Part shown: in pieces, positions 14,866 to 32,519 of the stretch
How positions within the stretch are numbered: the first letter of the stretch is position 1
Layout of the letters: each line of letters begins with the position of its first letter
Source: Planctomycetaceae bacterium
GTDB lineage: Bacteria > Planctomycetota > Planctomycetia > Planctomycetales > Planctomycetaceae
Length of the DNA: 64,000 bases
Assembly (NCBI GenBank): GCA_024742875.1
Contig: JANSXP010000003.1
Location: 1-64,000 of the forward strand
Direction: 5' to 3'
Notes under the pieces: generated by a model
What the model was told of the DNA's origin: nothing
Databases searched by the model: none
Seen by the model: the letters and a program-made list of their open reading frames with translations, nothing else
Position numbers and translations under genes: made by a program

Positions 14866-16779
14866 TTAACAGGTTTCAGAAAAAGCGTTCGCCAGGTGCG
14901 CGACGCCATTGGTTGCCAGCCAGTCGTGCTGCTGTACGGCATCCACAGTGGCTCGACGGACGGCGGCAGCCGCCAGCCAGTTTTGCGTCAGGGAGGCTCC
15001 ATCGGCAGGAAAACGAACACCCAATAGATCGGTCTGTGTGGCAACTGCCGACTCGACCAGACGACACAGCACGGCCGCCGCAGTGGGGCGCAACTGACGA
15101 TTCAGCCGGGCGGCATCCTGCACGGCACCATCCACTGCACCGGTGGGAACTGCATGGCGACCTCCCAGAACAATGGCCTGCAGCCATCGCGCCAAAATGT
15201 CATCGTGGCCCACATCATCCGACTGGTCAGCGACCGCATCGATCGACACGGGAGACCGTTCAGCACTCGTCAGGCAGCCTCGCTCCACGAGATCCAGACC
15301 AACGTCGGCATGAAACAGCAGGGAGTCCAAAAACCGCAGCTGTGGTCCCTCGCCTGTTTCTGCGGGTGGCCCGATAGCAAGCAGCGACGCACAGCCAGCC
15401 TGGGAAAAGTTCATCCGCACCACACAGCGGACCCGCAGACCGGGCGCACGGGCCAGCATGCTGACGTTTTCCCGAAACGACACACCATCCCGATCGATCG
15501 AAATGCCCAGTCGCAGCACACGGCCGTCTGCGGTGCTCACAATCAGGTCCGACTCCGCGCAGCCCAGCACCTCCACCTCCAGAAACAGCAAATCCGATCC
15601 GGCCGGCCGTTCCACCTCCGGCAGTCGCTGAGCGGCAAACGCCGCCTCAATCTGGTCCTCACGGGGTCGGGCGAAGGCGGCCCGAATTGGGGGAGCCTCC
15701 CAGCCCGTGCCCTCGATGGCCACAGCCCGGGCCGATTCAGCGCCGCCCAGTCGACCATCGCGGGACCGCGTGGCTTTGGAGATCAACAGCGAACCGCGAC
15801 TAAGTTCCTGATGTGGCAGCGCCAGTCCGGCCACTGAAACACCTGACCGCCACGCCTGAGGAATTCGGCTCGCGTCTCCTGGCTGGACATCGCTCACGGT
15901 GCACAGGCCACCCCCATCATCCATCATCCAGGTCACCACACCACTGTACCCGCTGCGAGTCAGAACCGGTTCGCAGCACAGTCCGTGCAGCTTCAAACTG
16001 TTCACTGGATGATAACGGCGACGTGCGGTGCCCACCCAGGTGTCCGCCACAGCAGATGACGTTGCTGCCTGCTGCGACAGCCAGTGCGTGACTTCCAGAG
16101 CCTCCTGCACATCGGCAACCGCCTGGGCTGAATCAAACGCCTCTGAGTCCGCGCGAACGGCACGAATGTTGGTCATGATCCGCAGCGCGGCGGCCGCCAG
16201 CCGATGCAGACCTTCGCTGCGGCACTCGTGGATGGAACGCAGCAACCGAGACTGCAGCACGGTTCCGGCGGCACGCAGTCCGGCCGACAGAAGGCCGGAC
16301 TGCACCCGACGCATGCCGGCAACCGCCTGACGCTGGCCCGCCGACAGATACTGTACGGACACTGACGGGTCGTCTGTGGAGACCGAATCGCCACCTGCAG
16401 AATCATCCGCAGCCTCCCCAACAGGCCCCTCGCCTGTGAGACTGACACCCGATGACTGTGCGGTCTGGTCGACGCCATTATCGTCAGTGTGTTCGGCATC
16501 CGTGGCCGCAATTTCCAGCACGCTCAGAACAGCCAGGACGTGAAAACAGCGCGGAGCCAGCAGACACGTACAGGCCACATCGTCCACAGAAGAAATCACA
16601 TGCGACAACAGCTGCACCGTCTCGCCTCCGGCCTGCACCGCCCACACATCGCCATCGGCCGTCCATTCCCAGGACCGGGCCACCTCGGGACTTTTGTCCA
16701 GTTTCTTCTGCAGCCGTGACGGGGCAGAAGCGGCCATGTCCGCGAGCACGCCGGGAAAAATCACGGAGCGGGGTGTCAT
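14866..16779 (-). CDS. SWIM zinc-finger protein (YehQ-like) of the MoxR/VWA operon
   Basis: A 637-aa protein. Near residue 68 is a SWIM motif, CTCLLAPRCFH (CxC...CxH), a zinc-binding motif linked to DNA or protein binding. The rest is helical and long, without other recognised domains. SWIM proteins of about this size accompany MoxR ATPases and VWA proteins, as E. coli YehQ does. The ATG at 16777-16779 overlaps the TGA of the DUF5682-VWA gene (ATGA), showing translational coupling; an ATG at 16800 is possible but lies inside the upstream gene. It is the last gene of the operon. The motif is certain; the YehQ relationship rests on gene order and size. Confidence 0.85.
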   Translation of the reverse strand: MTPRSVIFPGVLADMAASAPSRLQKKLDKSPEVARSWEWTADGDVWAVQAGGETVQLLSHVISSVDDVACTCLLAPRCFHVLAVLSVLEIAATDAEHTDDNGVDQTAQSSGVSLTGEGPVGEAADDSAGGDSVSTDDPSVSVQYLSAGQRQAVAGMRRVQSGLLSAGLRAAGTVLQSRLLRSIHECRSEGLHRLAAAALRIMTNIRAVRADSEAFDSAQAVADVQEALEVTHWLSQQAATSSAVADTWVGTARRRYHPVNSLKLHGLCCEPVLTRSGYSGVVTWMMDDGGGLCTVSDVQPGDASRIPQAWRSGVSVAGLALPHQELSRGSLLISKATRSRDGRLGGAESARAVAIEGTGWEAPPIRAAFARPREDQIEAAFAAQRLPEVERPAGSDLLFLEVEVLGCAESDLIVSTADGRVLRLGISIDRDGVSFRENVSMLARAPGLRVRCVVRMNFSQAGCASLLAIGPPAETGEGPQLRFLDSLLFHADVGLDLVERGCLTSAERSPVSIDAVADQSDDVGHDDILARWLQAIVLGGRHAVPTGAVDGAVQDAARLNRQLRPTAAAVLCRLVESAVATQTDLLGVRFPADGASLTQNWLAAAAVRRATVDAVQQHDWLATNGVAHLANAFSETC

Positions 16780-19700
16780 CGGATCTGCTCTCCCACCCAC
16801 CGAGCCAGCTCGGACGGACTGAGCGCGGCGACCGGCATGCCGCAGGCGACGACCTGTCGGGCAATCCCCGTTTGGTAGCGCGGCTTGCCCGCATCATCCA
16901 GCGCGGCCAGCCCCAGCGCCTTCACACCAGAGTCTGTGAGCTGCCTAATCTCGGACAGCAGTTGCGGTATCGGTCCGCCCTCTTCAAAGTCGGTGATCAG
17001 CAGCACAATGGTCCGCGAAGGCACCCGGACTTTTTCCCTGGCGGCCCGCACCCCACGCCAGATGAATGTCCCACCGCCCACCTGCACTTCCATCAGCATC
17101 TCCAGCGGGTCATCGACAGTCCCGGTAAAGTCCATGACCTCGGTGCTGAAAGCCAGAAAGCTGACGCTCAACGCCGGCAGTCCGGAAAAGATGGCGGCGG
17201 TCAGCGCACTGAAAATCACGGACGGCTCCATCGACCCGCTCACATCCACGACATAGATAATGTGCCAGTCCATGCTCTTTTTGGCGGGCGCTTTGAAAAA
17301 GAAGTCTTCGGCCGCCAGTCGCAGTTGTCCCAGGTCATCACGCCTTGCTGTTTTGAGATTGGCCATGATCGTGCGCCGCATGTCCAGTCTCGGAGCAGGG
17401 CGGCGAGTCGGCCGCGGCGTGGTCAGACCAGTCAGCGCCGGTGCCATGCGGGTGGCCAGTTCTTTGGACAGCGCAGCCGTAATTCGCCGGGCAATACGGC
17501 GGAGCTTTTCCGTCTGAGATCCCGGCAGACCGCCACGAAGAGACAGCACCTGCTCCAGCAGTTCCACGGAGGGACGCAGACTGTCTTCGTTCATGACGGT
17601 CAGGGCAGCACCGCGTCCCTGTTCAATCGCTTCCCCCAGCACTTCTTCGCGTACATGCTCACCAAACAACTGTTCCAGATCTTCCGCCCACTCCCGCACA
17701 CTGGGGTACGATGCCTGGTCACCACCACCATCACCGCCGATATCGCCGCGACTGCCTTCGCCGCGACCGGAGCCATACAGCTCGTCCAGCGCTCGGGCGG
17801 CCGCACGGGCGGTGGGGCACTGGGAATCGGTTCGCTGACCAAGAATCAGCCGCCAGCGGTCGGTCATGGTCAGCTGCGCCCGTTCATCGGCCACTCGCCG
17901 AAGTGATTCTCTGTTGCCATCACCCGCTGGAGTCTCCACATCACCAGAGAGCACAAAGTCGGGCAGCAGTGCGGCCAGCTGCCGCCGCGCCGCTTCGTCT
18001 GCGCGAAACCACACCTGCTGCCGTTCCGGGTCATCTGCTGGCAGCGCTCGACCGGACGCAGGATCAGCGGGCTGCTGCCGTTCGATTTGCTGCAGCAGTG
18101 ACCGGCGCGCAATCACGCTCATCACATCAAATCCTTTGCGCAGCGCTGGCAGCCGCTGCAGAAATTCGTCGTCCGCACAGGCCCGCAGACGATCGTCAAT
18201 ACCCTCGAGGCAGGCCAGGTCCGCCTGAATGCGCGGTTGCGCGACAAACACGCTCGCCTGCAGACGCAGGGTCAGCTGACGTCGGGCGTCTGGTGTTGTG
18301 GCCGCATCCAGCCAGCTGCCTGTTTCGGTGGCAAAATCGGAAACGGAAATCTGCGACAACAACAGCAGCGAGGCCGCACCGGCCCCCTGCATTGTGGGGC
18401 TGCCTTCGCGCCACAACTGCCGCAGGGTCCACAGCAACCGTCCGGAGTCCACAGTGGACAATCCGTCATCCTGCTGCTGAAACCACAGCACCAGGTCCAG
18501 CACGGCCGCCACATCGCTCGGTTCTTCAGAACCGGACAGCCCTTCCAGTCGGGCGATCGCGGCCTGCAGCAGTCCGGCGGAAGACAGTCCCTGCGGGACA
18601 TCAAACGGCTGGCAGTAGCGAGGCTTAACGGCATCATCCGAAGACGGCAGGCCGGGAAAATGGCCGGACGTGACGCGATCCACAAACGACATGGCGTTCG
18701 TCAGTTCGCCCAGTCCGGCGGTGTCGGCAAATGGGCCCACGATCCAGTCCAGACCCATCGCGACAATATCGCCCAGACCGCAGGCCGCCGCCTGATACAG
18801 CGCGTCCAGCTGTGCCCGCCCCCATTCGAAGACGTCAGTCGTGAAATGCTGACGCAGCACACCCAGGGCCACCTGACGCAGCGTGGCCCCTCGGACAGAC
18901 GACAGGGAAATCATGGCGGCCGTGCCGTGCTCCCACTTCACCGTCCAGGTTGTCGTCAGACTTTCCCGATCACCCGCACTGCCATCCTCTCCAGGACTCG
19001 CGTAGGGAATCTGACAGACCAACAACTGCTGAAAGACGACTTCCCGCGCTCGATCCAGTGCACTGCGGAGCGGATCCAGACGCATTCTCTTATCCTGCCC
19101 CAGCGTCGCGGCGCCGGGCAGATTCAGATCGGCCAGCACCTGTTCCACGTGGGGGGCCAAACCGCAGCGCGGAACATCATCGGGCAACTCTCCTGTGCGA
19201 TCACCAATGAGCACAGCCGCCATCGCTTTGGCCACAGCCCGACCGGCGCCATACAGCTGCCCCTGAGTGAGACACAGCTGCAGCGCTTCCACCAATTCCT
19301 GCCTGCCGGGCGAGGGCAGCCGCCGCACCCGCGATAAGTCGCGACTGACGCGAACCACTTCCTGCGCATCGGCCGCGTTCATTGGATGCCCACCCGCCCG
19401 CAGTTCACGACACACACCCACCACCAGATCTACCAGCGCGTGATCGATGGCCTCCGGCGAGTCGGCCTCCCACGAACGCTGATGCCACATCGGATCACGC
19501 AGTCCGGCCGGATAGCCAGACCGCTCATCCAGCTGCTCAAACGCATAGGGAATCAGCGCCGTGGCGATCTCGACATTCTTATCGACTGTCCGCTCCGGCG
19601 GCGGCGTCCAGTGCACCGGCTGCGGCAGTAAAGCGGACGCATGATAAGACCCCACGATGGCCACGCAGCGGCTGTCGGCATGCTCGGCAATGTGCTCTCG

Positions 19701-20318
19701 CATGCAGGCTTCGCGGCGACGATCGTACTCACCGGGCTCACTGTCGTTCCACCGCAGCGCCCAGCCAAACAGCAGCGCCGCGCGACGCAGTCGTTCGGGG
19801 GATTCCGTGATGCTGCGTGCTTCGATCCACTGGTCCCACAGCTGTCCGGAATCCTGCGTCTGCGTACGGCGAAGCAGACTTTTGAGCAGACCACGCGGCA
19901 CGCCCATCTGCCGTGCGAAGCCTGGTTCTCGCACAGCGATCGGCAGATCGATGGCGTGCACCGGGACGTTGTGCTGCGTGGCCCAGCGAATGGCGGCCAG
20001 CTCCGGAGAAAAATCGGCAAACGGATAAAAACACAGATCGGCCCCGTCGTTCCGACAGCCTGCCAGCGCGACGGGCGCCTGCGTGTCGGCATGCCCCAGC
20101 CAGCCAATCCACGGTTCCAGCTCAGCGGGCAGTTCCAGCAGAATCTTTTCCGGCGCAGCGTCAGCGAGCAACTGCGGCACGGCCCGTGACAGCGCCGCCG
20201 AATGATGGCGCACACCGATCAGTACCGGTTGCGTGCAGCTGGCCAGCTGATCAGGCACGGAGACATCAAATTCGCTGTCGATGTCGACGTCCACCTGTTT
20301 GGCGGTGCTGCCGTTCAT
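16776..20318 (-). CDS. DUF5682-VWA fusion protein (YehM + YehP-like)
   Basis: An 1180-aa protein. The first half (from TQPVLIGVRHHSAALSRAV to about residue 700) matches DUF5682, with the conserved GVRHHS block and a GSYHASAL block near 195-235. The C-terminal 180 residues form a von Willebrand A domain with an intact metal site: DVSGSM (about 1015), GGGTFIWRG and ITDFEEGG, giving the DxSxS, Thr and Asp ligands. In E. coli these are two proteins, YehM and YehP, whose summed length is close to this one. VWA partners usually regulate or recruit clients for MoxR ATPases. The start has a GGGGG purine site; only 11 bases separate it from the MoxR stop. Confidence 0.9.
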   Translation of the reverse strand: MNGSTAKQVDVDIDSEFDVSVPDQLASCTQPVLIGVRHHSAALSRAVPQLLADAAPEKILLELPAELEPWIGWLGHADTQAPVALAGCRNDGADLCFYPFADFSPELAAIRWATQHNVPVHAIDLPIAVREPGFARQMGVPRGLLKSLLRRTQTQDSGQLWDQWIEARSITESPERLRRAALLFGWALRWNDSEPGEYDRRREACMREHIAEHADSRCVAIVGSYHASALLPQPVHWTPPPERTVDKNVEIATALIPYAFEQLDERSGYPAGLRDPMWHQRSWEADSPEAIDHALVDLVVGVCRELRAGGHPMNAADAQEVVRVSRDLSRVRRLPSPGRQELVEALQLCLTQGQLYGAGRAVAKAMAAVLIGDRTGELPDDVPRCGLAPHVEQVLADLNLPGAATLGQDKRMRLDPLRSALDRAREVVFQQLLVCQIPYASPGEDGSAGDRESLTTTWTVKWEHGTAAMISLSSVRGATLRQVALGVLRQHFTTDVFEWGRAQLDALYQAAACGLGDIVAMGLDWIVGPFADTAGLGELTNAMSFVDRVTSGHFPGLPSSDDAVKPRYCQPFDVPQGLSSAGLLQAAIARLEGLSGSEEPSDVAAVLDLVLWFQQQDDGLSTVDSGRLLWTLRQLWREGSPTMQGAGAASLLLLSQISVSDFATETGSWLDAATTPDARRQLTLRLQASVFVAQPRIQADLACLEGIDDRLRACADDEFLQRLPALRKGFDVMSVIARRSLLQQIERQQPADPASGRALPADDPERQQVWFRADEAARRQLAALLPDFVLSGDVETPAGDGNRESLRRVADERAQLTMTDRWRLILGQRTDSQCPTARAAARALDELYGSGRGEGSRGDIGGDGGGDQASYPSVREWAEDLEQLFGEHVREEVLGEAIEQGRGAALTVMNEDSLRPSVELLEQVLSLRGGLPGSQTEKLRRIARRITAALSKELATRMAPALTGLTTPRPTRRPAPRLDMRRTIMANLKTARRDDLGQLRLAAEDFFFKAPAKKSMDWHIIYVVDVSGSMEPSVIFSALTAAIFSGLPALSVSFLAFSTEVMDFTGTVDDPLEMLMEVQVGGGTFIWRGVRAAREKVRVPSRTIVLLITDFEEGGPIPQLLSEIRQLTDSGVKALGLAALDDAGKPRYQTGIARQVVACGMPVAALSPSELARWVGEQIR

Positions 20319-20329
20319 CGCCGATCCCC

Positions 20330-21562
20330 CTATTTTTCTTCCAGTTCACGCCGCAGTTCGTGCAGTCGCTTCCAGGAATGCGTGCCGTCTTTGGCGCGGC
20401 GTTTCACGGCCCCATCCCAGTAGGCCAAAAGGCGCCCGCGATCCTGCGCGTCGTCTTTCATCACGACCCCCAGCAGCTGCCCGGGCAGATAACCCAGGGG
20501 ATCGCGCTGAGACGGGAAGTAGGCCGCCTGTCGGCCAATGGCGGCCGCAATGGCAACCGCTTCCGCCGTGCTCATGACGGTGCCCGGTTTTTCAACCGAC
20601 CAGCCCTCCACCGTGCGGCCTTCCCGAAGATCGCGAAACGCGGTGACCAGCACTTCCAGCAGACCATCGTCCACTGGAGTGGACACCCCGGATTCTGCCA
20701 GCAGCGCCGTGGACTGCCGTTTGACCAGTTCCACTTCCCGCTGATGCTCGCTGATGGGCGCGATCACCTCAAAGTTGAATCGTCGCTTCAGGGCGGCCGA
20801 CATTTCCGACACGCCTTTGTCACGCAGATTGGCGGTGGCAATGATGTTGAACCCCGGAGCGGCAAACACACTGCCGGAATCATCGGACAGTTCGGGAATC
20901 ATCAGCCGCCGCTCCGACAGCAGTGAGATGAGCGAATCCTGAACCTCCGGCAGACAGCGGGTCACTTCTTCGATCCGCACGATCCGCCCCGCCTGCATGC
21001 CAATCATCAGCGGCGAGGGCACAAGCGCTGACTCATCCGGTCCGCTGGCCAGCAGCTGTGAGTAATTCCAGGAGTAACGAAAATGGTTTTCTGTCGACCC
21101 GGCGGTCCCCTGAATGGTCAGTCCACTCGTGCCGGAGATCGCCGCGCCCAGCAGTTCTGACAGCATACTCTTGGCCGTGCCGGGCTCTCCCACCAGCAGC
21201 AGTCCCCGTTCGCCGGCAAGCGTCACGACACAGCGTTCGACAATGGCTCGCTCACCGACAAACTTCTCGGCAATTTCCAGCATGGCAGGGCCATCGGTCT
21301 TCGCCCCTTTCGGCAGCTTCAGTTTCTCTTTTCCGCTGCCACAGATGAAGGTCACGACAGCGGCGGGAGACAGCCGCCAGCCGGCGGGGCGGGGCGCCTC
21401 ATCGTACGCCGACAGAAACTCCAGTTCCGCCGCGTACACGTCTTCGGCCGGAGGCGACTGGCGATGACCGCGAGGAGCCGCCTCAGACGAAGGGGCGCTC
21501 CTCGCGGATGCCGGAGTCGATTTTGCGGCCTTCTTTTTGGCCGCTTTTTTTTTCTTTGCCAT
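20330..21562 (-). CDS. MoxR-type AAA+ ATPase (YehL-like)
   Basis: A 410-aa protein. A Lys/Ala-rich N-terminus of about 40 residues precedes the AAA+ core. Walker A is GEPGTAKS (about 125-132); the Walker B region reads RIVRIEEVTRCLPEVQDSL, with Glu where MoxR proteins usually have Asp-Glu; sensor 1 is FNIIATANLRD and the arginine-finger region is AALKRRF. MoxR ATPases form hexameric rings that remodel or mature partner proteins together with a VWA protein. Start at ATG 21562, with a GAGAG site just upstream. It sits between the giant paralogues and the DUF5682-VWA gene, so those are its probable partners. Confidence 0.92.
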   Translation of the reverse strand: MAKKKKAAKKKAAKSTPASARSAPSSEAAPRGHRQSPPAEDVYAAELEFLSAYDEAPRPAGWRLSPAAVVTFICGSGKEKLKLPKGAKTDGPAMLEIAEKFVGERAIVERCVVTLAGERGLLLVGEPGTAKSMLSELLGAAISGTSGLTIQGTAGSTENHFRYSWNYSQLLASGPDESALVPSPLMIGMQAGRIVRIEEVTRCLPEVQDSLISLLSERRLMIPELSDDSGSVFAAPGFNIIATANLRDKGVSEMSAALKRRFNFEVIAPISEHQREVELVKRQSTALLAESGVSTPVDDGLLEVLVTAFRDLREGRTVEGWSVEKPGTVMSTAEAVAIAAAIGRQAAYFPSQRDPLGYLPGQLLGVVMKDDAQDRGRLLAYWDGAVKRRAKDGTHSWKRLHELRRELEEK

Positions 21563-21636: not shown

Positions 21637-24600
21637 TCAGACTTCCTCGTAGCGCGGCGCCTCTCCGTCCCGGACACGCTGCCAGGCCCGTTCAAATAAC
21701 AGATGAACGGGCTCGTGCGGCACGATCCGTTCCAGCAACGGCGACGCAGGCCCGCGAGCCCGCCCCTCCAGGTCGTACAAAGGCAGCTTCCACGATTCCA
21801 GCGGCAGATGTGGCGCCTTGAGGGCCTCCCAGCCGCCTGGCAAAAACACCTTACGACCAGCCCGCGCCCGCCTGGCTTCCAGCACACACTCTTTTTCGAT
21901 CAGCTCACCGGCCGCTTTTTTGATACGTGCAGCCGTCCAGCCGTTCCACAATTTGACCAGCCTGTCCGTGGGATTGTGCAGCGCGAGCAGCTGCAGGTAG
22001 TAAACCGCCGCATCTTCACTGACGGTCAGCTGTTTGACCACAGCTGCCACCAGTTTGGGGCAGGCATGCAGGGGGTTGGATTCGTACTGCCCGTCGGGCA
22101 CTGGTGTTTTGACAATGCGTTCGCACAGTTTCCTGAACCCGGTGGACCGCACCAGGCTGATCGTTTCAATCAGCGACACATCCTCATCATCGCCACCGGT
22201 CGTGGCCTGCAGAATTTCGCTGACCGTCTGGTAGTCTTTCGTCTTTTTCAGTTTGCCCGGACTGACGAATCGGATGACCCGCCACGAATTGACCAGGGCC
22301 GTCACGCCGGCCCGCTGCCCCATCATCTGACCATTCAGCGTTTTGGTTTTTCCAAGTGTGGCCTGCACGGCCGCTTCGGCCGCTTTTTGCGGTTCTTTCT
22401 CGTCGTACCAGTAGCCGTCGTGCGTTTCGACCATCAGATTCGGGTTGTCCAGCGCGGCCAGTAAAGCATCCCGCACGGCCGGCATTTTGGCTCGCGACGG
22501 ATGACCGACCGGCAGCCCTGACGAAATCAAACACACGCTCAGCACAGCCGCCTTCAGCTCGTTGGTCGAGATTCCCTCACCGTTGCTGGCCTTCAGGTTG
22601 TTATTGCGGGCCTCAAATTCAAATGACACCTGTGGCGAAAAGATGGCCGCCTCGTGCGGTTTGTTGATCGCAACAAACATCTTTTTGGCGTCCACTCCGT
22701 AAGAGTAGCCATCGGACAGTTCGTCCATCAGTTCCATCGGCAGATCGAGGCGGTCGGGCTTCAGCTTCCGCCACGCGGCTTTCAGCCGTTCTCCCACGGC
22801 CGCGTGATCATCCCACAACTGCTCCGCCGGCCCATCCAGCATGGCGGCCACCAGACCTTCGCGTGTCTGCACAGACAGGGCGTCCAGCGACGATTTGGCC
22901 GCGGACAGCGGTTTGGTTTTCAATTTGAGCGCAGTCCGCAAATGCGCGGGCATGAAGTTGGCCGTGCGGGAGGTCATGTTGGGATAGCCAAGCCAGATCA
23001 GCGCCACTTCGGAAAGCGACAGCCCCATATCGCCCGCCAGCCCCTCCAGAAAACCGACATCCGGTAATTTTCGCTCTCGCTGGCCGCAGACGCTCAGATA
23101 GCTGCGGACCTGCGCCGCCGACCAGCCGTTCGTCAGCCCCCGACCGTCTTTCGCCACCGCATCCGCGAAAGGTTCAAACGAGGCAGTGGTATACTCGGCC
23201 ACCCAGTAACCGTAGTACTCTTTGCCAATCAGAAAGCGACTGTTCGTGCCTTTGTGGGCCAGCATAGTCAAACGCAGATCGATGTCTTTGCCGTTTTCGT
23301 CCTGTGGTATCGTGAACGGCGGATCTCCACTGAACCGGCAGGAGTAAAAGCGAAATTTGCCTGGCAGTTCCAGCAGGCCGCTGGCCGCGACCGCCTCGGC
23401 AAATTCGTGCCAGCTGCGATCCTGGTTGTCTTCGTGTATCCAGTTCAGGTACCACAGCTTGCGGGAAAAACAATCCACGCAGAAACGCAGCAGTTGCAGG
23501 GAGGCCATCGGAACAGGAGCCCCATCCGTTTTTCCGGCAAAGTACTTCACGGCCTCGGCCATCCCCTCAAAGATGCCCGCCCCGCGCGACTGCACGTGAG
23601 TGGCAAACACACGCAGCGTGGATTCGATGGTGGCATCAGCCCCGGTGGCCACTGTCCTGACCTTCTTTTCCACCGTGCGGGGGTCGCGATTTTTCTGCAG
23701 TCGCTCCAGCCGACGCTGCAGCCGACCGTGACGAATCACGGCCGATCGCAGCCCCACAAACAGTCGATCGTTTTTCAGTTTGGGCAGCAGCTTACGAATG
23801 GCAGCATCCAGCTGCGGAAAGTCGGTGCCTTCGGCTGGCAGACCGGTGCTGTTATCCCAGGCCTGGTAGTCAGCCGCTTCAGCAGCCACCAGCGGCTTCA
23901 GATCCTTATCCCTGAGTTTTCGCAGTTTCCGGGACGTCGCGACGTCGCGGACTTTGAGAAAATGCAGGAACTCATCATTGAACGCCAGTGCCTGCCCGAT
24001 TCCCGTGGGCCGTGGACAAATCACAAACTGCGCGTCAGGGTCCATCACAATCAGGTTGTCGGCGCGGTCCCGTCCATAGGTACTTTTCTGAACAACCGGC
24101 AGCTGCCTGTCAGTCCCCGGCTGATCCAGCATACCGACGAACATCAGCGGCTGGGCAGAATCGATCGACGCACCATCAATGCGTTCGGCTTCCACCCGAC
24201 CGTCCTGGTACTGACGACAGCGAAACCCGTGCGTGCCGTCTTTGACGCCCAGCGGCGAATCAGCAATCACTTCCCCATAGTGATACAGCCGCTGCTGATG
24301 CAGCTGCAGTTTAGCGCCGTCAGCGATGTAGTCCTCAAAGAAAGCGGGCATCGATTTACGGCCCGTCCTGCCGCTGGCCGGATCCAGCTGCCGCATGGCG
24401 ACACCGTCTGACTCGTTCCAGGCGATGCGAAAATAATTCTCGCCGTCACCAAACCAGCGATCCATGCTGTAGCCTTCCAGCACAGACGCGTCTCCGGCAT
24501 GCACCACTTTGCCCCCAAAGAACGTGCCGCCATCCGGCATGTCGACAGTTGCGCCCTCCAGTTTCGCTTCGCCATACAGCCACGCACTGACCGATTTTTT

Positions 24601-26520
24601 GGGTTCGTGATTCCAGAAGCGTCGCCCTTTGGATGAACCTTTTGCCTCAACCAACAGCGCGCCATCAAGGTAGTGCAGGCCGACCACTTTTTCGCCCGCG
24701 TCGATCTTCACCTCGATTTCTTCAACAATCTGCTCGCCGCGAATCACCACAGCCGTCATTCCATCACAGACGATCGCGTACGGAAAAGAACCGTAGACGG
24801 AAACCGACAGGTTTTTCCTGCGGTCGAGCTTTGTCGTAAACGGCGACGTTAGCCGATCCACCACCGCTTCCAGCTGCGGCCATCCATACTCATCAAACAA
24901 ACCGGCGTTGAGCGTGTGCGTCAGCGAGGGCAGGGTGTGGCTTTTGGCCAGCAGCTTCAGGCTTTCGGGAAACTCTTCAAACGTCGCCAGCGTTGTTTTC
25001 TTCTCGAGGATGTGCAGCACATCGTTGGTGGCCGGCAGACCGTAACACGCTGTTTCAGAAATCTGCTGATTCAACCAGTCACGCCGGGCCTCCCACAGAC
25101 TCTTCTTACCCCGGGCGGCTTTCTCAAAGGTGGCGGACCCCGCTACGCCTTCCACAGCCGCCAGCAGGGCGGTGCGAAGACGCTCATTTGCGGACAGAAA
25201 GACGGGATCGCGCGGCCGGCCAGTGGCTTTGCCGTCTTCCACCGCTTTGGCCCACTCAGACAGATCGAGGGTCAGCTCGGGCGGTGGATCAACCAGTGGC
25301 ACGCCCAGCTCCAGCGCCAGATCAACAAAGTCCACATCGCCTTCAATTCGCGACCCCCAGCGGGACTGGCGATAGATTTCCAGCGGCACCCGCTGCTGCT
25401 TCATCACTTCGGCCGCTGCCTGGAGGACGTCGTACAGTCGCTGCGTCGGACGCGTGTGCAGTTTGATGATCCGAGATATCCACGCCGCCGCACCGCCGGT
25501 GGGGCCATCGGCTGCATCCGCTTCTTTCTCCCACACAAATGACAGCACGCCCCACTTGTGCAGATAGTCCAGCCACGGCCAGATGTCCTTGTGCTGCCAG
25601 GCAGAACGCTGAGGAATCATGTTCAGCAGCCGACCTGTGGCTGCGGGATTGACCTTCACCAGTTCCGTCACATATTTGTCAGCCGCCTTCCAGAATCCCA
25701 TCGAGGCGCGGCTGATGGCGGGGGACTCCAGAATCTCGGCCAGCACGCTCTGGATCTCCTGCTGCACGTCCAGACCGGCCGCCTTCACCAGCGACGCCAG
25801 GTCCTTACACATGGCCGTCCAGGGAGGCAATCCGCCCATTGTGCGGCGGACACTCAAATCCCGCATGAACTGCCACGCCTCTTCGCCTGGATACTTCGTC
25901 TGCAGTTCTTTGCCGTACTCTGTTAGCGCCTTGGCGCTCACGCAGCCGGCCAGGGCGAACTCCAGAAACGCATCCCGTCGAACCTGCTCATCAATCTTCA
26001 GTCCGTGGACATTCTCCGCTTCCCGCGCCTTGCCGAAAGCCCGTGAGGCATACGTTGCATTGCCCGCCACAATGTAGTCGCGTCCGACCTGCTCCCAGAA
26101 TGACGGCAGAAAATGGGCCACGCTGGCGCCCAGCCGATCGGCGATTTCACTGAAAGCCTCGTAGGCATGCCCCGGTTTTGATTTGGCCCGACGGGACTCT
26201 TTACGAAACTCCTTCACCAGTTCCAGTGCGAACTTTGCGTGTTGAGGATCGTTGATCAGCGCCCACTCCGGAAAGCCAATCGCCTGCCGCGTGCGTTTGG
26301 CCACGCCAGGCGTGACTTCGGGTTGCGCAAAACCCAGATAGTCCATCGTGAGATCTTCGCCGGCCGCCAGGTTGTCGGCGCACAACCGCACCACGGGCGT
26401 GTCCAGGGCCGGGTGAGTAAAACAACGCGCGCTGACTTCATCCACCGCGTCGACGGATTTGGGTTTGGCTTTGACAGGCACCAAAGCGCCGGCTTCCAGG
26501 TATTGATCCACACTGGCCAT
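21637..26520 (-). CDS. Giant operon protein B (1627 aa), paralogue of the upstream gene
   Basis: A 1627-aa soluble protein; start at ATG 26520 (MASVDQYLEAGALVPVKAKP), aligned with the paralogue's start and with GGA upstream. Conserved blocks: GFPEWALINDP, AHFLPSFWEQVGR, RDAFLEFALAGCVS (helical N-terminal third); a central beta-rich segment (about 610-800) with repeated GDG and DGGTF turns; and a C-terminal wHTH-like block, LWNGWTAARIKKAAGEL, then ARAGRKVFLPGGWEALK. No catalytic motif, membrane helix or signal peptide is visible. Similar very large proteins, often annotated simply as DNA-binding, occur in actinobacteria beside MoxR, DUF5682 and SWIM genes, from memory. It may be a scaffold or MoxR client. 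Function unknown. Confidence 0.85.
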   Translation of the reverse strand: MASVDQYLEAGALVPVKAKPKSVDAVDEVSARCFTHPALDTPVVRLCADNLAAGEDLTMDYLGFAQPEVTPGVAKRTRQAIGFPEWALINDPQHAKFALELVKEFRKESRRAKSKPGHAYEAFSEIADRLGASVAHFLPSFWEQVGRDYIVAGNATYASRAFGKAREAENVHGLKIDEQVRRDAFLEFALAGCVSAKALTEYGKELQTKYPGEEAWQFMRDLSVRRTMGGLPPWTAMCKDLASLVKAAGLDVQQEIQSVLAEILESPAISRASMGFWKAADKYVTELVKVNPAATGRLLNMIPQRSAWQHKDIWPWLDYLHKWGVLSFVWEKEADAADGPTGGAAAWISRIIKLHTRPTQRLYDVLQAAAEVMKQQRVPLEIYRQSRWGSRIEGDVDFVDLALELGVPLVDPPPELTLDLSEWAKAVEDGKATGRPRDPVFLSANERLRTALLAAVEGVAGSATFEKAARGKKSLWEARRDWLNQQISETACYGLPATNDVLHILEKKTTLATFEEFPESLKLLAKSHTLPSLTHTLNAGLFDEYGWPQLEAVVDRLTSPFTTKLDRRKNLSVSVYGSFPYAIVCDGMTAVVIRGEQIVEEIEVKIDAGEKVVGLHYLDGALLVEAKGSSKGRRFWNHEPKKSVSAWLYGEAKLEGATVDMPDGGTFFGGKVVHAGDASVLEGYSMDRWFGDGENYFRIAWNESDGVAMRQLDPASGRTGRKSMPAFFEDYIADGAKLQLHQQRLYHYGEVIADSPLGVKDGTHGFRCRQYQDGRVEAERIDGASIDSAQPLMFVGMLDQPGTDRQLPVVQKSTYGRDRADNLIVMDPDAQFVICPRPTGIGQALAFNDEFLHFLKVRDVATSRKLRKLRDKDLKPLVAAEAADYQAWDNSTGLPAEGTDFPQLDAAIRKLLPKLKNDRLFVGLRSAVIRHGRLQRRLERLQKNRDPRTVEKKVRTVATGADATIESTLRVFATHVQSRGAGIFEGMAEAVKYFAGKTDGAPVPMASLQLLRFCVDCFSRKLWYLNWIHEDNQDRSWHEFAEAVAASGLLELPGKFRFYSCRFSGDPPFTIPQDENGKDIDLRLTMLAHKGTNSRFLIGKEYYGYWVAEYTTASFEPFADAVAKDGRGLTNGWSAAQVRSYLSVCGQRERKLPDVGFLEGLAGDMGLSLSEVALIWLGYPNMTSRTANFMPAHLRTALKLKTKPLSAAKSSLDALSVQTREGLVAAMLDGPAEQLWDDHAAVGERLKAAWRKLKPDRLDLPMELMDELSDGYSYGVDAKKMFVAINKPHEAAIFSPQVSFEFEARNNNLKASNGEGISTNELKAAVLSVCLISSGLPVGHPSRAKMPAVRDALLAALDNPNLMVETHDGYWYDEKEPQKAAEAAVQATLGKTKTLNGQMMGQRAGVTALVNSWRVIRFVSPGKLKKTKDYQTVSEILQATTGGDDEDVSLIETISLVRSTGFRKLCERIVKTPVPDGQYESNPLHACPKLVAAVVKQLTVSEDAAVYYLQLLALHNPTDRLVKLWNGWTAARIKKAAGELIEKECVLEARRARAGRKVFLPGGWEALKAPHLPLESWKLPLYDLEGRARGPASPLLERIVPHEPVHLLFERAWQRVRDGEAPRYEEV

Positions 26521-26551
26521 AAGTTCATCCGGTTCTGCAGGTTGCTGTCTG

Positions 26552-29500
26552 CTATGATTCCTGGTTGACTGATTCATACTGCGGTGCATCGTCCGACTGC
26601 ACACGGTCCCACGCCCGAGCGAACAGCAGGTGCAGCGGCTCCAGCGGCAGTATGAGACTCAGTGGAGGGGCGGCTCGGCCATAATGATCCCGCGTCATGC
26701 CAAACAAGGGCATCTTCCAGGTTTCGATAGGCGGCAGCGGTGACTTCAACGCCTCCCAGCCGCCGGGTAAGAACACGCTGCGGCCCGCGCGGGACCGTTT
26801 GGCGGCAATCACCAGATCGGCCGACACCAGTTCTTTGGCGATCGCTTTGACCTGCGCGGTTGACCAGCCATTCCACAGCTTCACATTTTGATCGGTGGGA
26901 TCCGGCAAACTGAGAATCTGCAGATAATAGGCGGCGGCGGCCTCGCTCAGCTTCAGCTTCCTGGCCACGGATTTCACCAGAGTGGCGGCGGCCAGCAGCG
27001 GACTGGCTTCGTAACTCCCTTCAGGCACGGGCGTTTTGCCAACCCGCTTTTTCAGCTCGCCAAACGGCTTGCTGCGAACGATCTCCACGGCATTCAGTCC
27101 GGACAGGGAACCTTCGGCCACTTCCGGAGAATCAAAGAATGTGCCGACCTGATTTCTGAGTTTCTCAAGCTGCCGCGCGGTCTTCAGTTTGGCCGGTCGA
27201 AATCGCAGCGTCACTGATGTCCCCTGCACTTCGCCCATGCCAATGCCATCATCAAACAGGGACGTATCACCGTACTGATTCTGCTGCACCTGTGTGGGCT
27301 TGCCAAAAGCGGTTTGCATCTGCTGCAGCACTTTTTTGTCAGAGCCGGTCAGATAGATGTTCACCACCGTAAAGATCAGGTTCCCGTTTCTGAGTGCCTG
27401 CAGAGACGCGTCGATCAGAGAGACCACCTGCTCCCGCGCCGGGTCGCCGACCGGCAGACGATAAAACAGCAGTGCGGCGGCGGACACGGCAGCCTGAAGC
27501 ACATTCTCCGAGAACACTTCGCAGTCTTCCGGCTCAGTTTTGACTTCAAATTCTCCGTAGTCACCGACGTGCAGTGTGTACTTCACGCTGTCGTCAAACA
27601 GCATGTGGTGGTGTGGGTCCACGAGCGCCTGCAGGAAGGGCCCCATTTCCAGCCCCCAGGGACACGACGCGCTGATCTCCTGCTGCAGCTTTTCGGATAT
27701 CTCCAGGCGCCCCGGCTTCAGAGCCTGCCACGTTTCTTCGAATCGCTGCGCTGCCGCCTGGTGGTTGTTCCAGAGATCGTCCGGATTCTGCAGCAATGCG
27801 AGGGTGAACTGCTCGACGAGTTCGTCCTCAAAGGTGTCCGCCTGCTCTCGCGCCGCCTTCAAATCTTTTACCCGCAGCTTGTGGCGATTGCGGACCTCTT
27901 TGCTGACCCACTCCGTGTGCCACACATTACGCCCCGGACAGCCCAGCCACAGGTTCAGTACCTGGGCGGGGGGCAGTTCAGTGGTTTCGCTCAGTTCCTG
28001 CACGAGTTCCGGCGCAGGCAGCATGGCCGACGGGCCCCCCGATCCGTCGGCCGACTGGCTGGCTGCAGCAATCAGCGCGTGCAGTACGCTCGCCTGTTCG
28101 GTGGGCACAGAGTACGTGTAGCCATCCTCATCGTACTCAGCCGCTTTGATGTCATGAAATTTTCCGTCCGGCGCGTACTCCAGTACGTGAAAAATGGTCG
28201 ACCAGGAACGATGAACCAGATACCGATTTTTTCGATGCGTGTAGACGCCCAGCAGAGCCGGGACTTCGCCGTCGTCTTCGTCGTATTCTTCGTCGTCGTC
28301 GGCAGGGATCACGCTCAGCAGCGGACAGGTTGTGCCTGCATCCACACCATACGAACGGAAACGACCGGGCAGTTCAGCAAATGGCAGTTCACTCCACGCC
28401 TGCAGAAACGGCATCCAGCTGACCTTAAAGCGGCCGGATGACAGCCGGGTCCACAAATCGGCGGGGGTGAGGCTCAACAGAGAGCTGAGAATGTCACGCA
28501 GGGACCCGGGAAGTTCGGGATCATCCGTTTTGCCGGCGAAAAAGGCGGCGGCCTCTGCCATGTGAGCAAACAGGGCCCCCTGAGAGTCGGAGACTCCCCA
28601 AACGCTGAACGAGGACAGCACCTCTTCCGCCAGACGTTCGGCCGCTGAACTGACAGGCGAAACGACGGCCTTGCGGGGATCCCGCTGCGACACCAGTTTG
28701 TCGATGGTCAACTGCTGTTCCGCCGCGAACCGCACGACACCCCGCAGGCCCTGCAGCAGGCGCTGTGACTGCAGCTTCGGCAACAGGTCGCGAATCGCCC
28801 CATCCAGCAGCGGATAGCCGCCGTCTTCCTCCGGTCGCCCCTTTTGATCCCAGTTGCTCAGGTCCTGCAGTGCGGCGTCCAGCAAAGCGCGAGCCTGTTT
28901 CTGCGTGACTTTGCGAAGCACCCGCGAAGAAGGCACGTCGCGCGTGCTGACCAGATGCAGAAAATCGGCGCTGAGCGAGGCCGCCTGACCTCGGGCAAAC
29001 TGTTGTCCGGCCGCCCACCGTCCCACTTTGTGTTGTCCCGCCACATCCCAGACTTCACGATCCTCATCGACCGGCAGAAAGGCTTTGCGACCAGGCTGCT
29101 GCAGCAGTCCCCGGAAGTCGGGCCTCCCGTCCCCCCGATACTCCAGACTCCGCCCATCAATACCTTCGTATTGTGCATTGAGTTCTTCCGTCGCGTTTTT
29201 TCGATATCGAGCGCGGAAACCCACTTTGCCATTTCGACTTCCCAGCGGTGACCCATCAACGAGATCGCCATACGAGGCAAAAGAGCAGCTGTCGATCAGG
29301 AGTTTCCATGCGGACGTGATGTATTCATCGAGCCAGCCTGGCACACAAACCCGCCCGCGTTTCCCCGTGGCCGGATCAACTTCGCGAAACTCACGCTCGT
29401 AGTCGGCATTGCTCCAGCCGGACGTCCAGAAGCGTCCGTCCTCTTCCAGAATCTGATCATCGATTTCCAGATCCAGCAGGGACTTCCGACCACAATGGAC

Positions 29501-31552
29501 GGTGCCGCTCCCGACAAACGTACCACCGGCAGGCAAGTCGAAAGACAGACCGCTGCAATTCATGTCACCCGACCACCAGCCCTTTGATTTTGCTGCCGGC
29601 TGAGAGTGCCACCACGCTGTAGTTTCATGATTCTTTTCAGCCCAGACCACCAGATCACCGTCGAGATAGGCGAGCGACTCCAGACTGTGACCTTTGGGAA
29701 GCTTCAGCTCCGATTCCAGCACAATCTCATCGCCACGCAAAACCACTACGGTCTGACGATCGGTGACGATCAGATAGGGGAAATGACCGGAAATCAGCGG
29801 GCGTTGCGGATGGCCGGATTTATCCGTGGTGGTTAGACGTTCAACGACCGCCTCCAGCGCGGGCCAGCCGTATTCATCAATGAGCCCCGCCTGCAGGGTC
29901 CGCGTCAGCGCGGGCACCACATCCATCCCCGACAACTTCCGGTAAGCCTCGGGAAACTCCTGAAAGGTGGTAGCTGTGGTGCACACTTTGAGGCGCCCTA
30001 AAGACTCATCCTGCGAGAGCAGGGTGCCACTCGTCGCTTCGTTCAGCCAGTTGAGCAGACACTGCCGTCGCGCTTCGGTCAGCCCGGCTTTCCCTGCGGC
30101 ATGCCGCTGAAACTGAGCCGACCCGAAACTGCTGGCAACCGCTGCCTGCAGTGCGGCGGTAAAGCGTTCGTCGGCCGCCAGAAAGCTCAGGTCTCTCAGC
30201 CGCCCGGGGCGTGGCTGTCCGGTGTCCGTTTCATCGTCGAAGTCTTCATCGTCATCTCCCGCAAGACCATCGCGGCACCAGTCTTCCAGGTCGATGGAAA
30301 TCGTGTGACCGGCCGGCGGGCCGGCCAGCCTGACCCTGAGCGAGAGGGCCAGATCCACCAGATCGGCATCCACTTCCACTTCGTCGCCCCAGCTTTGTGG
30401 TCGGTACAGATCAAGCCTCGCACGGTCTTTGCGCAATCGGGGGGCCATTCGCTCCAGCAGGTCGTAGGCCATCTGCAAAGATCGCCAGGTCGACCGCAGT
30501 CCGCGAGTGTACCAGGCCGCCGCGCCGCCTTTGGGTGCCGCCGCTGGATCCACGTCTTTGCTCCACGCATTTTCCAGCACGCCCCAGTCATCGAGCAGCT
30601 GACACCACTCGTAAAACTCGGATGCCCGCCACGACGTGGTCTTGGGAATCAGATTCAGCAGCACTCCGGCCACGTGAGGATTTCGCTGTGCCAACGGAGC
30701 CACCACGTCGGTCGCGGCACTCCAGAACTTCAGCGACGCCCGATTGATCGACGGCGCGTCGATCATCTCCTGCAGCACCGATTCCAGTTCGGCCTCCACA
30801 TCCAGATCCGCCTGTTTGATCAATCGGGCCATGTCCTTCAGCATGGCATTCCAGGGGGGCATGCCGCCGAGCACGCGGCGGACGCACAGCTCGCGGAAAA
30901 ACTGCCAGGCATCCGGCGGATCATGTCGCTGCGACAGCTCTTTGCCATACTCCGTCAGCACTTTGATGCTCACACAGCCGGCCAGGGCAAATTCCAGAAA
31001 CGCGTCGCGGCGAACATCCTCATCAATCTCCAGTCCGTGGACTTTCTCTGCTTCCCGCGCTTTGCTGAACGCGCGAGAGCCATACGTGGTGTTGCCCAGC
31101 TGGATGAATTCGCGGCCCACCTGTTCCCAGAACGACGGCAGGAAGTGGGCCACACTTTTTCCCAGCCGTTTGGCGATCACATCAAATCCTTCCTGAGCGT
31201 GCCCCGGTTTGGGTTTGGCCCGATTCACCTCACGACGAAACTCCTTGACCAGTTCCAGCGCATACCGCGCATGATCAGGGTCGTTAATGAGAGCCCACTC
31301 CGGAAATCCGAGCGCGCGGCGCTGGCGTCGGGCAACCGGACCTGCGACGTCGGGCGACACGAAGCCCAGAAACTCCATGGTCAGATCGTCACCAGCCGCC
31401 AGATTGTCGGACGACAGTTTGATGACAGGATGCTCCAGCGCAGCGTGCTGATAGCTGCGGGCACTGACGACGTCGACGACCACATCGCCGCGAAGCTTCC
31501 CTTTTGCCGGTAACAGCGCACCGGCTCGGAGCAGCTGATCAGAAGTCGCCAT
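26552..31552 (-). CDS. Giant operon protein A (1666 aa), paralogue of the downstream gene
   Basis: A 1666-aa soluble protein starting at ATG 31552 (MATSDQLLRAGALLPAKGKL) with GGAG nine bases upstream. It aligns with the next gene from end to end: GFPEWALINDP, AHFLPSFWEQVGR, FLEFALAGCVS near the N-terminus; a central beta-rich region with LPAGGTFVGSG; and LWNGWSTAQVKAIAKEL then RAGRSVFLPGGWEALK at the C-terminus. Extra acidic stretches (about 440-455, DDDEDFDDETD, and near 1110) are absent from the paralogue. The two genes are 31 bases apart and clearly arose by tandem duplication. No active site is recognisable; the C-terminal block resembles a winged helix. Confidence 0.85.
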   Translation of the reverse strand: MATSDQLLRAGALLPAKGKLRGDVVVDVVSARSYQHAALEHPVIKLSSDNLAAGDDLTMEFLGFVSPDVAGPVARRQRRALGFPEWALINDPDHARYALELVKEFRREVNRAKPKPGHAQEGFDVIAKRLGKSVAHFLPSFWEQVGREFIQLGNTTYGSRAFSKAREAEKVHGLEIDEDVRRDAFLEFALAGCVSIKVLTEYGKELSQRHDPPDAWQFFRELCVRRVLGGMPPWNAMLKDMARLIKQADLDVEAELESVLQEMIDAPSINRASLKFWSAATDVVAPLAQRNPHVAGVLLNLIPKTTSWRASEFYEWCQLLDDWGVLENAWSKDVDPAAAPKGGAAAWYTRGLRSTWRSLQMAYDLLERMAPRLRKDRARLDLYRPQSWGDEVEVDADLVDLALSLRVRLAGPPAGHTISIDLEDWCRDGLAGDDDEDFDDETDTGQPRPGRLRDLSFLAADERFTAALQAAVASSFGSAQFQRHAAGKAGLTEARRQCLLNWLNEATSGTLLSQDESLGRLKVCTTATTFQEFPEAYRKLSGMDVVPALTRTLQAGLIDEYGWPALEAVVERLTTTDKSGHPQRPLISGHFPYLIVTDRQTVVVLRGDEIVLESELKLPKGHSLESLAYLDGDLVVWAEKNHETTAWWHSQPAAKSKGWWSGDMNCSGLSFDLPAGGTFVGSGTVHCGRKSLLDLEIDDQILEEDGRFWTSGWSNADYEREFREVDPATGKRGRVCVPGWLDEYITSAWKLLIDSCSFASYGDLVDGSPLGSRNGKVGFRARYRKNATEELNAQYEGIDGRSLEYRGDGRPDFRGLLQQPGRKAFLPVDEDREVWDVAGQHKVGRWAAGQQFARGQAASLSADFLHLVSTRDVPSSRVLRKVTQKQARALLDAALQDLSNWDQKGRPEEDGGYPLLDGAIRDLLPKLQSQRLLQGLRGVVRFAAEQQLTIDKLVSQRDPRKAVVSPVSSAAERLAEEVLSSFSVWGVSDSQGALFAHMAEAAAFFAGKTDDPELPGSLRDILSSLLSLTPADLWTRLSSGRFKVSWMPFLQAWSELPFAELPGRFRSYGVDAGTTCPLLSVIPADDDEEYDEDDGEVPALLGVYTHRKNRYLVHRSWSTIFHVLEYAPDGKFHDIKAAEYDEDGYTYSVPTEQASVLHALIAAASQSADGSGGPSAMLPAPELVQELSETTELPPAQVLNLWLGCPGRNVWHTEWVSKEVRNRHKLRVKDLKAAREQADTFEDELVEQFTLALLQNPDDLWNNHQAAAQRFEETWQALKPGRLEISEKLQQEISASCPWGLEMGPFLQALVDPHHHMLFDDSVKYTLHVGDYGEFEVKTEPEDCEVFSENVLQAAVSAAALLFYRLPVGDPAREQVVSLIDASLQALRNGNLIFTVVNIYLTGSDKKVLQQMQTAFGKPTQVQQNQYGDTSLFDDGIGMGEVQGTSVTLRFRPAKLKTARQLEKLRNQVGTFFDSPEVAEGSLSGLNAVEIVRSKPFGELKKRVGKTPVPEGSYEASPLLAAATLVKSVARKLKLSEAAAAYYLQILSLPDPTDQNVKLWNGWSTAQVKAIAKELVSADLVIAAKRSRAGRSVFLPGGWEALKSPLPPIETWKMPLFGMTRDHYGRAAPPLSLILPLEPLHLLFARAWDRVQSDDAPQYESVNQES

Positions 31553-31607
31553 ATTAATTCTCCTGCTGACAGATTTGTGGGGCGAAAGAAGGACTGCCAG
31601 CGCAGGA

Positions 31608-32519
31608 CTACTCGTCGTCTTGTTTTTCCACCACACGCTTTGCGTAGATGGCCGCCGCCATCCTCACACCTTCAGAAAAGGCGACGGCCCCCACATCTTT
31701 GACGGGCAGCGTCTTGTCTCGTTCGTCAGCAAAGATGAGATCGGCTGTGTACGTCTCCTCTTCCGGGTACTCAGCCCCCACCCAGAATCGCGCCTCCACC
31801 AGCGTGCCGGCTTCCCACACAGGGCAGCAGGCGTAGCCGCCGCTCACCTTGTACCCCAGTCGCCGACACAGTCCCAGGGCATGTGTCAGCATCTCGAACT
31901 TCCCACCGGAGTACTCCTCAATGGATGTGGTCTCCTGTTGTTCGGGGGTTGGTTTCCACGTCTGGCGAAACAACTGATCCAGCTGCTGCTCGAAGCCCAG
32001 TTCCACCGTCAATTCACGAAAGTCATCCAGTTCTTCCAGCAGGATAGGATGCGGAATCGCGACCGTGTCCGTTTTGATCCACTGGGTTTCACCGTCCAGA
32101 TCGATGATGCCCACCCCCTTTTTCTCGTGCACCTCACGCAGGAACCCCGCCTCCTCCTGAACCAGCCTGTCTTTCTTTACGGCACACACAACGGCGTTAA
32201 ACAGCCGATCCTTCCATGCCGGATCCGGCCAGACGGCCGCCAGCACTTTGCGGGGCAACGGCAGCGACCGCAGCATCCACATTTCGGTGGTTTCCAGACA
32301 CTGCCGCTGATGCTCGACCAGCCAGTCTTTCAGAGCGATCAGCTGCTGCGAAGGCTCAGAATCCTTCAGCCATTTGGGGACCGAAGCCAGTTGTTTGCCT
32401 TTGGGATTGCGACACACCAGCTTGCCGTCGGCGAGGGCCACAGCGTAGTCCCTGTCTGCGTCAATCCACTTCAGACCATCGTCGACCGGTGCCTGTTCGG
32501 CTGCCGCTTTTTTTGCCAT
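31608..32519 (-). CDS. Stand-alone DUF4132 domain protein (YehI/MolR C-terminal-like)
   Basis: A 303-aa protein; ATG 32519 with an AAGGCG site. The middle and C-terminus show DUF4132 blocks: DPAWKDRLFNAVVCAV, GFLREVHEKKGVGIIDLDG, VAIPHPILLEELDDFREL, FEMLTHALGLCRRLGYKV, and a final block with ARFWVGAEYPEEETYTADL and SEGVRMAAAIYAKRVV. In E. coli this domain is part of the much larger YehI and MolR proteins, often with a WGR domain; here it stands alone as the first gene of the operon. No enzymatic role is established for the family. Fifty-five bases separate it from giant protein A. Confidence 0.85.
   Translation of the reverse strand: MAKKAAAEQAPVDDGLKWIDADRDYAVALADGKLVCRNPKGKQLASVPKWLKDSEPSQQLIALKDWLVEHQRQCLETTEMWMLRSLPLPRKVLAAVWPDPAWKDRLFNAVVCAVKKDRLVQEEAGFLREVHEKKGVGIIDLDGETQWIKTDTVAIPHPILLEELDDFRELTVELGFEQQLDQLFRQTWKPTPEQQETTSIEEYSGGKFEMLTHALGLCRRLGYKVSGGYACCPVWEAGTLVEARFWVGAEYPEEETYTADLIFADERDKTLPVKDVGAVAFSEGVRMAAAIYAKRVVEKQDDE

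Follow-up and report, generated by a model that had tools for sequence, protein, structure and literature searches.

A planctomycete variant of the YehL-type MoxR–VWA module with a predicted hydrolase domain and a giant protein family beside DUF4132

Introduction

Escherichia coli K-12 has two MoxR ATPases, one of which is YehL (PMC3893208). The surrounding region reads yehF (WGR), yehH (a pseudogene), yehI, yehK, yehL, yehM, yehP and yehQ. Our literature search found no account of what YehL's partners do, and no paper text naming DUF5682, DUF5691 or PF18934. Of five papers that mention at least two of yehI, yehM, yehP and yehQ, one is, from its title and opening abstract, a genome announcement, and the other four seem unrelated. 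A mechanism has been described for another MoxR–VWA pair, NorQD: the VWA protein inserts a finger into the pore of MoxR, and the proposal is that ATP hydrolysis then twists and stretches it (PMC13036017). Here we analyse a six-gene operon from a Planctomycetaceae bacterium (assembly GCA_024742875.1), located in the first 64,000 nucleotides of contig JANSXP010000003.1 (hereafter, the window). Judged by sequence, the operon is a variant of the YehL-type MoxR–VWA module in which four parts are yeh homologues, and the N-terminal domain of its DUF5682 protein is predicted to be a hydrolase.

Results

Relationship to the E. coli yeh region

Six open reading frames (ORFs), all on the minus strand at positions 14866–32519, encode a small DUF4132 protein, two giant proteins (A and B), a MoxR ATPase, a DUF5682–VWA fusion and a SWIM protein. 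The ORFs were confirmed, and with the start codons chosen here the intergenic gaps are 55, 31, 74, 11 and −25 bases, in agreement with the operon of short gaps or overlaps described in the original prediction, which a model had made from the letters of the window. Pfam confirmed AAA_5 in the MoxR protein, DUF5682 together with VWA_CoxE in the fusion, and DUF4132.

The relationship to the yeh parts that had been proposed for these genes was likewise recovered. In BLAST searches, the MoxR protein matched YehL (46% over 379 aa, E 1e-103, YehL being the one MoxR subfamily compared), and the fusion matched first YehM (25.6%, E 2e-21) and then YehP (34%, E 1e-54). Profile comparisons related the SWIM protein to YehQ (hhalign 96.8% over 257 columns; BLAST not significant, E 1.2) and the small DUF4132 protein to the C-terminal third of YehI (96.1% over 268 columns; plain BLAST not significant, E 0.16). 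The window thus holds the parts of a YehL-type module, namely a YehL-like MoxR, DUF5682 (YehM), VWA (YehP) and SWIM (YehQ), and of YehI only the C-terminal DUF4132 part has a homologue there. The giants showed no detectable sequence similarity to YehI in BLAST or in profile comparisons (0.5% or less), so their being diverged YehI proteins is unsupported by sequence. YehI itself has further matches in E. coli K-12, to yehF and to the pieces of yehH; the region probably once contained two tandem YehI-type genes, and partner doubling is therefore not peculiar to the window.

A conserved cassette with exchangeable partners

Relatives of the giants were encoded in 433 stretches of a collection holding one genome per species (84,980 species). 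We kept the best 80, yielding 79 loci, a sample biased toward the query; Actinomycetota account for 48 of the 82 rows of the tree. Three loci whose giants are partial were excluded, and counts cover only loci with enough flank. DUF4132 lay directly upstream of the giant in 66 of 69 loci and MoxR directly downstream in 64 of 69, with DUF5682 present in 51 of 57 and SWIM in 47 of 53. On this gene order, the giants belong to a cassette, DUF4132–giant–MoxR–DUF5682/VWA–SWIM, that spans three phyla, and their sequences mark them as a widespread unnamed family of Actinomycetota, Myxococcota and Planctomycetota. The predicted link between giants and MoxR/VWA genes is borne out by this survey, and the outcome named in advance as refuting it, giants found mostly without such neighbours, did not occur.

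Since the cassette places DUF4132 beside the giant and one relative fuses the two (G162, a single protein with DUF4132 at residues 17–300 and the giant at 321–1936), "DUF4132 plus giant" stands in for YehI. The original prediction had DUF4132 split off and two giants added; the separate DUF4132 protein is indeed seen, but the giant is no addition to a YehI-like protein and instead fills the YehI slot jointly with DUF4132. The cassette looks like two sub-modules, DUF4132–giant and MoxR–DUF5682VWA–SWIM, because these halves lie in opposite orientation in two loci: L123, which is complete but has its MoxR, fusion and SWIM genes on the strand opposite to the rest, and L082 (genome G379), where the halves are convergent.

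Co-occurrence was also seen within the window's own phylum. Among 392 genomes, 38 had DUF5682, and all eight that matched the giant profile fell within these 38 (P 3.8e-9). Seven of the eight are convincing. The match in G100 is a fragment of 186 residues located on a different contig, and leaving it out makes the co-occurrence 7/7. Two genomes (G137 and G243) have the giant and DUF5682 on separate contigs, with MoxR adjoining the giant. Outside this phylum, the Streptomyces atratus plasmid NZ_CP109382 encodes DUF4132, a giant, AAA and DUF5682 consecutively, followed by a hypothetical protein where other cassettes have SWIM; it has one giant where the window has two.

Giants A and B are full-length paralogues with 40% identity. 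They are the product of a local duplication, because only one of the 79 loci (L102) has two full-length giants side by side. With this adjacent pair, and with two giants on separate contigs in genome G021, we rejected the idea that the tandem pair is unique; in the tree of giants, the fork that would date the duplication is not settled.

The DUF5682 loci fetched from the phylum sort by partner into giant, YehI and DUF5691 types (profile match above 35 bits; DUF5691, SWIM and WGR-DUF4132 by Pfam). A giant was never mixed with YehI or DUF5691 at one locus in this sample; the two types seen at L063 come from adjoining loci. MoxR–DUF5682–VWA is preceded by DUF5691/HEAT proteins and a SWIM protein at L036, L054, L055 and others like them, and this is a second exchangeable partner set. 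Nine loci had no partner in the stretch examined (L040, L042, L047, L058, L064, L086, L088, L100, L101), two had a SWIM protein only (L044, L062), and two had only a giant-type SWIM protein (L065, L085).

Several further arrangements were observed. One strain of Actinokineospora globicatena carries complementary giant loci (L125 and L172), one having DUF4132 without the MoxR core and the other the core without DUF4132. Lujinxingiaceae bin152 has a lone giant, with no cassette gene within 10 kb on either side (L130), as well as the complete, convergent cassette L123. The window's own genome (G000) encodes two more DUF4132 proteins, each with DUF7737 and not of the giant type, at C152:108747-109286 (outside the window) and C157:5416-5952 (L092, L096).

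Core motifs and a predicted hydrolase in DUF5682

The original prediction held that all motifs of an ATPase–VWA machine are intact. This applies to the MoxR P-loop, GEPGTAKS in the window and GxPGTAKS in 66 of 66 cassette MoxR ORFs, and to the VWA MIDAS motif, DVSGS in the window and DxSGS in all 51 fusions longer than 1050 aa. Walker B departs from it, reading EE instead of DE in the window; at least 54 of the 66 relatives share this reading, counted over eight forms of the motif. The SWIM protein had no Pfam match up to E 0.1; its motif CxCx5CxH is invariant in six of six aligned relatives and present in 48 of 49 cassette relatives.

Examining the N-terminal domain of DUF5682 revealed a strictly conserved set of residues. 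All 93 aligned rows have the same R, H, E, D, R, M, G and H (11 of 104 rows were dropped as too gappy, and some rows repeat one locus), and the residue after the second R is E in 92 rows and D in one. Their order, RH, E, D, RxxxM and GxxH, is that of the Tiki/TraB/EreA/ChaN hydrolase superfamily (H, E, RxxxM, GxxH), whose His/Glu chemistry has been described (PMC6254334). DUF5682 differs in being longer, in being fused here to a VWA domain, and in its H–E spacing of 24 as against 26–28.

Profile comparison supported this relationship. The hhalign probability for DUF5682 was 72.0% with ChaN, 7.2% with TraB and 0.7% with erythromycin esterase, against at most 1.1% for six unrelated families; for comparison, the known pairs TraB–ChaN, ChaN–esterase and TraB–esterase gave 81%, 93% and 0.4%. 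Trimmed alignments gave 48.6% with ChaN and 14.1% with TraB; the probabilities are moderate to low. None of 200 column shuffles, which also destroy secondary-structure order, scored as high as the trimmed alignments with ChaN (40.0; shuffled maximum 22.7) or TraB (32.1; maximum 21.9), and reversed-alignment controls reached at most 0.2%. The alignments bring the motifs together: with ChaN, GVRHHS pairs with GENHDS, E with E and DLP with NIP, and with TraB, RExxM...GSYH pairs with RNxxM...GVGH (DUF5682 consensus letters first). A sub-threshold Pfam scan of 40 members returned ChaN in three (best 0.029), TraB in one (0.011) and erythromycin esterase in one (0.083). Given the invariant motifs and the ChaN and TraB profile support, we infer by remote homology that this domain is a predicted hydrolase of the superfamily, peptidase- or esterase-like.

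The giants have a predicted solenoid and propeller-like shape

The giants matched no family in Pfam, NCBIfam or PADLOC, and PDB sequences matched them only at E 0.79 and worse; we therefore rejected their identification with a known enzyme. Scanning 60 giant C-terminal halves returned 13 Pfam families, each in a single member. AlphaFold models of giant B residues 29–905 and 880–1655 had a mean pLDDT (predicted local distance difference test) of 90.9 and 89.3. Near the N-terminus lies a predicted solenoid resembling Get4 and tetratricopeptide repeat (TPR) proteins, delimited as the residues covered by at least a fifth of the VIA rows. The best row, Get4 (root-mean-square deviation (r.m.s.d.) 3.3, 145 aligned residues), covers only residues 97–244 of the model, and its Z of 12.8 is just below the caution line of about 13 for helical repeats. 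The region of about residues 600–863 is strand-rich in the model and returned propellers in Foldseek (BamB, E 3.4e-4; BBS1, TLE1, WDR5 and RbBP5), at an r.m.s.d. of about 9–12 and low TM-scores. Overall, the N-terminal half gave three Foldseek rows at E ≤0.001, two of which (ULK1C supercomplex and Raptor) have an r.m.s.d. above 20. The C-terminal half gave no PDB fold at E ≤0.001 in Foldseek and at best a Z of 6.0 in VIA; its terminal segment matched MarR weakly (Z 5.6, r.m.s.d. 4.8, 87 aligned), and we do not claim that the half has a new fold. The best-conserved stretches of the giants are the C-terminal end and residues 69–300. Together, the models suggest that a helical solenoid precedes a propeller-like region and that the end is winged-helix-like. 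The scaffold role that had been proposed for the giants fits the solenoid and propeller-like shape, the role itself being a prediction.

Table 1. Coordinates of the operon and of features within its proteins
Feature	Position	Strand	Basis and remarks
Small DUF4132 protein	31608..32519	-	ATG start at 32519, longer TTG frame to 32630; Pfam PF13569 E 5.7e-29
Giant A	26552..31552	-	1666 aa from Met29 of listed ORF; 40% identity to giant B
Giant B	21637..26520	-	1627 aa from Met29 of listed ORF
Giant B, predicted TPR/Get4-like helical solenoid	25522..26247	-	Residues 120-361; model-based
Giant B, predicted beta-propeller-like region	24016..24807	-	About residues 600-863; provisional
Giant B, C-terminal winged-helix-like segment	21664..22068	-	Residues 1513-1647; weak structural match
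MoxR AAA+ ATPase, YehL type	20330..21562	-	P-loop GEPGTAKS; AAA_5 E 1.1e-33
DUF5682-VWA fusion (YehM + YehP)	16776..20318	-	PF18934 E 4e-137, PF05762 E 3e-54
N-terminal Tiki/ChaN-like domain of DUF5682	19599..20231	-	R37 H38, E62, D124, R202, M206, G223, H226; hhalign ChaN/TraB
SWIM-type protein, YehQ-like	14866..16800	-	C77xC79x5C85xH87; motif and profiles; gene overlaps fusion gene

Genes flanking the operon

Downstream of the SWIM gene, the same strand (window 4535–14767, minus) may be co-transcribed. A 936 aa kinase begins 98 bases after the SWIM gene; behind it come a 297 aa ORF, FG-GAP and PQQ/propeller proteins in that order, and lastly a trypsin-domain protein of 1331 aa. On the plus strand, positions 32890–34395 hold a 501 aa ORF without a Pfam, NCBIfam or PADLOC match, which may not be a gene and is missing from all seven congeneric genomes. 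Because this neighbour is absent there as well, no empty insertion site of the operon could be read. Farther along (40597–48368, plus) lie an outer-membrane efflux (OEP) protein and two HlyD-like proteins slightly below the Pfam cut-off.

Discussion

The overall best explanation, to which we assign a probability of about one half, is that the MoxR–VWA pair controls the predicted DUF5682 hydrolase through a DUF4132–giant adaptor that fills the YehI slot. If a hydrolase sits ahead of the VWA domain, the simplest reading is that ATP controls it or the substrate on which it acts. The MoxR hexamer would grip the VWA domain and spend ATP on twisting or stretching the VWA protein, an action also proposed for NorQ/NorD, and this distortion would open, load or release the attached hydrolase. 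The DUF4132–giant pair would act as an adaptor or sensor that recruits the target, a task that may fall to YehI/WGR or DUF5691/HEAT proteins in other lineages, and the SWIM protein may bind a further partner, perhaps nucleic acid.

A number of observations weigh against this explanation. The alignment with ChaN covers the first 102 columns and that with TraB 71 columns surrounding the later half of the motifs, so neither of them spans all DUF5682 motifs. Erythromycin esterase was not above chance (score 22.6, with 4 of 200 shuffles as high), and in the scan of 40 members 12 unrelated families matched one member each, some of them better (from 0.0061) than the superfamily. Only 46 of the 59 cassette ORFs, some of them truncated, matched a regular expression for both His motifs, and a search for a PDB sequence relative of DUF5682 found none. 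Pfam describes ChaN as haem-binding, and superfamily membership alone would not prove catalysis. The association of giant and MoxR is known here from genes alone, and nine loci have parts missing or rearranged: besides L123, these lack DUF4132 (L103, L130, L172), MoxR (L105, L125, L130, L136) or both DUF5682 and SWIM (L121, L125, L130, L134, L136).

An alternative that we consider unlikely is a chaperone for metal or cofactor insertion like NorQD or CoxDE, in which DUF5682 and the giant bind the target and are not enzymes. The VWA domain belongs to the CoxE family in Pfam, NorQD acts as a MoxR–VWA opener of metalloenzymes (PMC13036017), and MolR has been discussed, alongside proteins with DUF4132 and WGR, as a candidate regulator of molybdate (PMC8533742). 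Yet no metalloenzyme is found among the cassette parts (the loci were scanned for cassette parts only), and the hydrolase-type residues of DUF5682 are strictly conserved.

Similarly improbable is a conflict system resembling the MoxR–vWA ternary systems, in which DUF5682 would be the effector and the giant would sense infection. Phyla with multicellular forms, the GxxxTAKS P-loop variant and a third component with predicted TPR and propeller-like parts recall those systems (PMC7159879), and the giant is absent from all seven congeneric genomes. It occurs on 11 plasmid records (Streptomyces 8, Embleya 2, Nonomuraea 1), four predicted mobilizable and several of chromosome size, and DUF5682–VWA on 40, some of chromosome size. 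The yehL–yehQ stretch, however, is present in 5162 of 5426 E. coli genomes (95%), which speaks against a typical defence island. PADLOC 2.0 gave no match better than E 0.03 for the six proteins, that one ("REase_II") being judged chance. Phages and viral contigs contained no relative of the giants, the 30 viral-contig stretches that fitted the pattern including none, and a phage origin was rejected. Eight flanking ORFs gave two PADLOC matches, the kinase to PD-T4-6 (E 1.5e-86) and the trypsin-domain protein to RT-Protease_XI (E 3.6e-23), both judged generic as confined to the catalytic domain. The stress or defence role raised in the original prediction thus gained no direct support.

Least probable is a nucleic-acid maintenance complex in which the SWIM, WGR and winged-helix parts would attach to damaged cells' DNA or RNA. 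In its favour are the SWIM motif of the cassette proteins, WGR in two of three YehI-type MoxR neighbours scanned, the "DNA-binding protein" label of the giant in the S. atratus record and the rise of Deinococcus radiodurans DUF4132 and WGR genes upon DdrO depletion (PMC8533742). Set against it are a cassette with no nuclease, helicase or ligase among its parts, a weak winged-helix match and a role for the D. radiodurans genes that the authors leave open (PMC8533742).

As for the E. coli module, it is dispensable at least in part, because its DUF4132 region is disrupted in 184 isolates of an ST131 sublineage (PMC9334617). In one adapted K-12 strain, a yehK/yehL intergenic change is among five changes, from which nothing follows (PMC6881287).

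What is new here is the Tiki/TraB/EreA/ChaN motif order in the putative hydrolase domain of DUF5682. With its named residues, the predicted hydrolase allows DUF5682–VWA to be tested for enzyme activity in a laboratory strain; that partner sets are exchanged hints at the seat of specificity; and the giant family merits a name. We tentatively propose, at somewhat less than even odds, that DUF5682 is an overlooked Tiki-superfamily hydrolase and the yeh core an ATP-gated enzyme with an exchanged targeting part. If so, nearly all E. coli would carry such an enzyme, a MoxR ring switching or feeding a hydrolase, and a further class of MoxR–VWA machine would join the metal inserters and the ternary conflict systems, of which four have been described.

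Compared with known systems, the cassette shares with the beta-propeller MoxR–vWA ternary systems a MoxR, a vWA protein, a large third protein and the GxxxTAKS P-loop (PMC7159879), which is found in all 66 cassette MoxR ORFs; the third protein of those systems has TPR and propeller, for which the giant offers predicted counterparts in the model, with poor propeller geometry (r.m.s.d. near 10). In contrast to that class, the VWA domain of the window is C-terminal (residues 954–1175 of 1180) with no propeller behind it, and the bpMoxR model scores below its own cut-off on the window's MoxR. SWIM, DUF5682, DUF4132, WGR, MolR and YehL do not appear in the main text of Kaur et al. 2020 (PMC7159879). 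NorQ/NorD and CoxD/CoxE resemble the window in pairing MoxR with a VWA partner and in the VWA_CoxE domain; the cassette differs in having no metalloenzyme among its parts. The yeh region has MoxR, DUF5682, VWA_CoxE, SWIM and DUF4132 in the same order as the window; YehM and YehP are separate proteins there and one fusion here, and in place of the 1210 aa YehI with its C-terminal DUF4132, the window has a small DUF4132 protein plus a giant.

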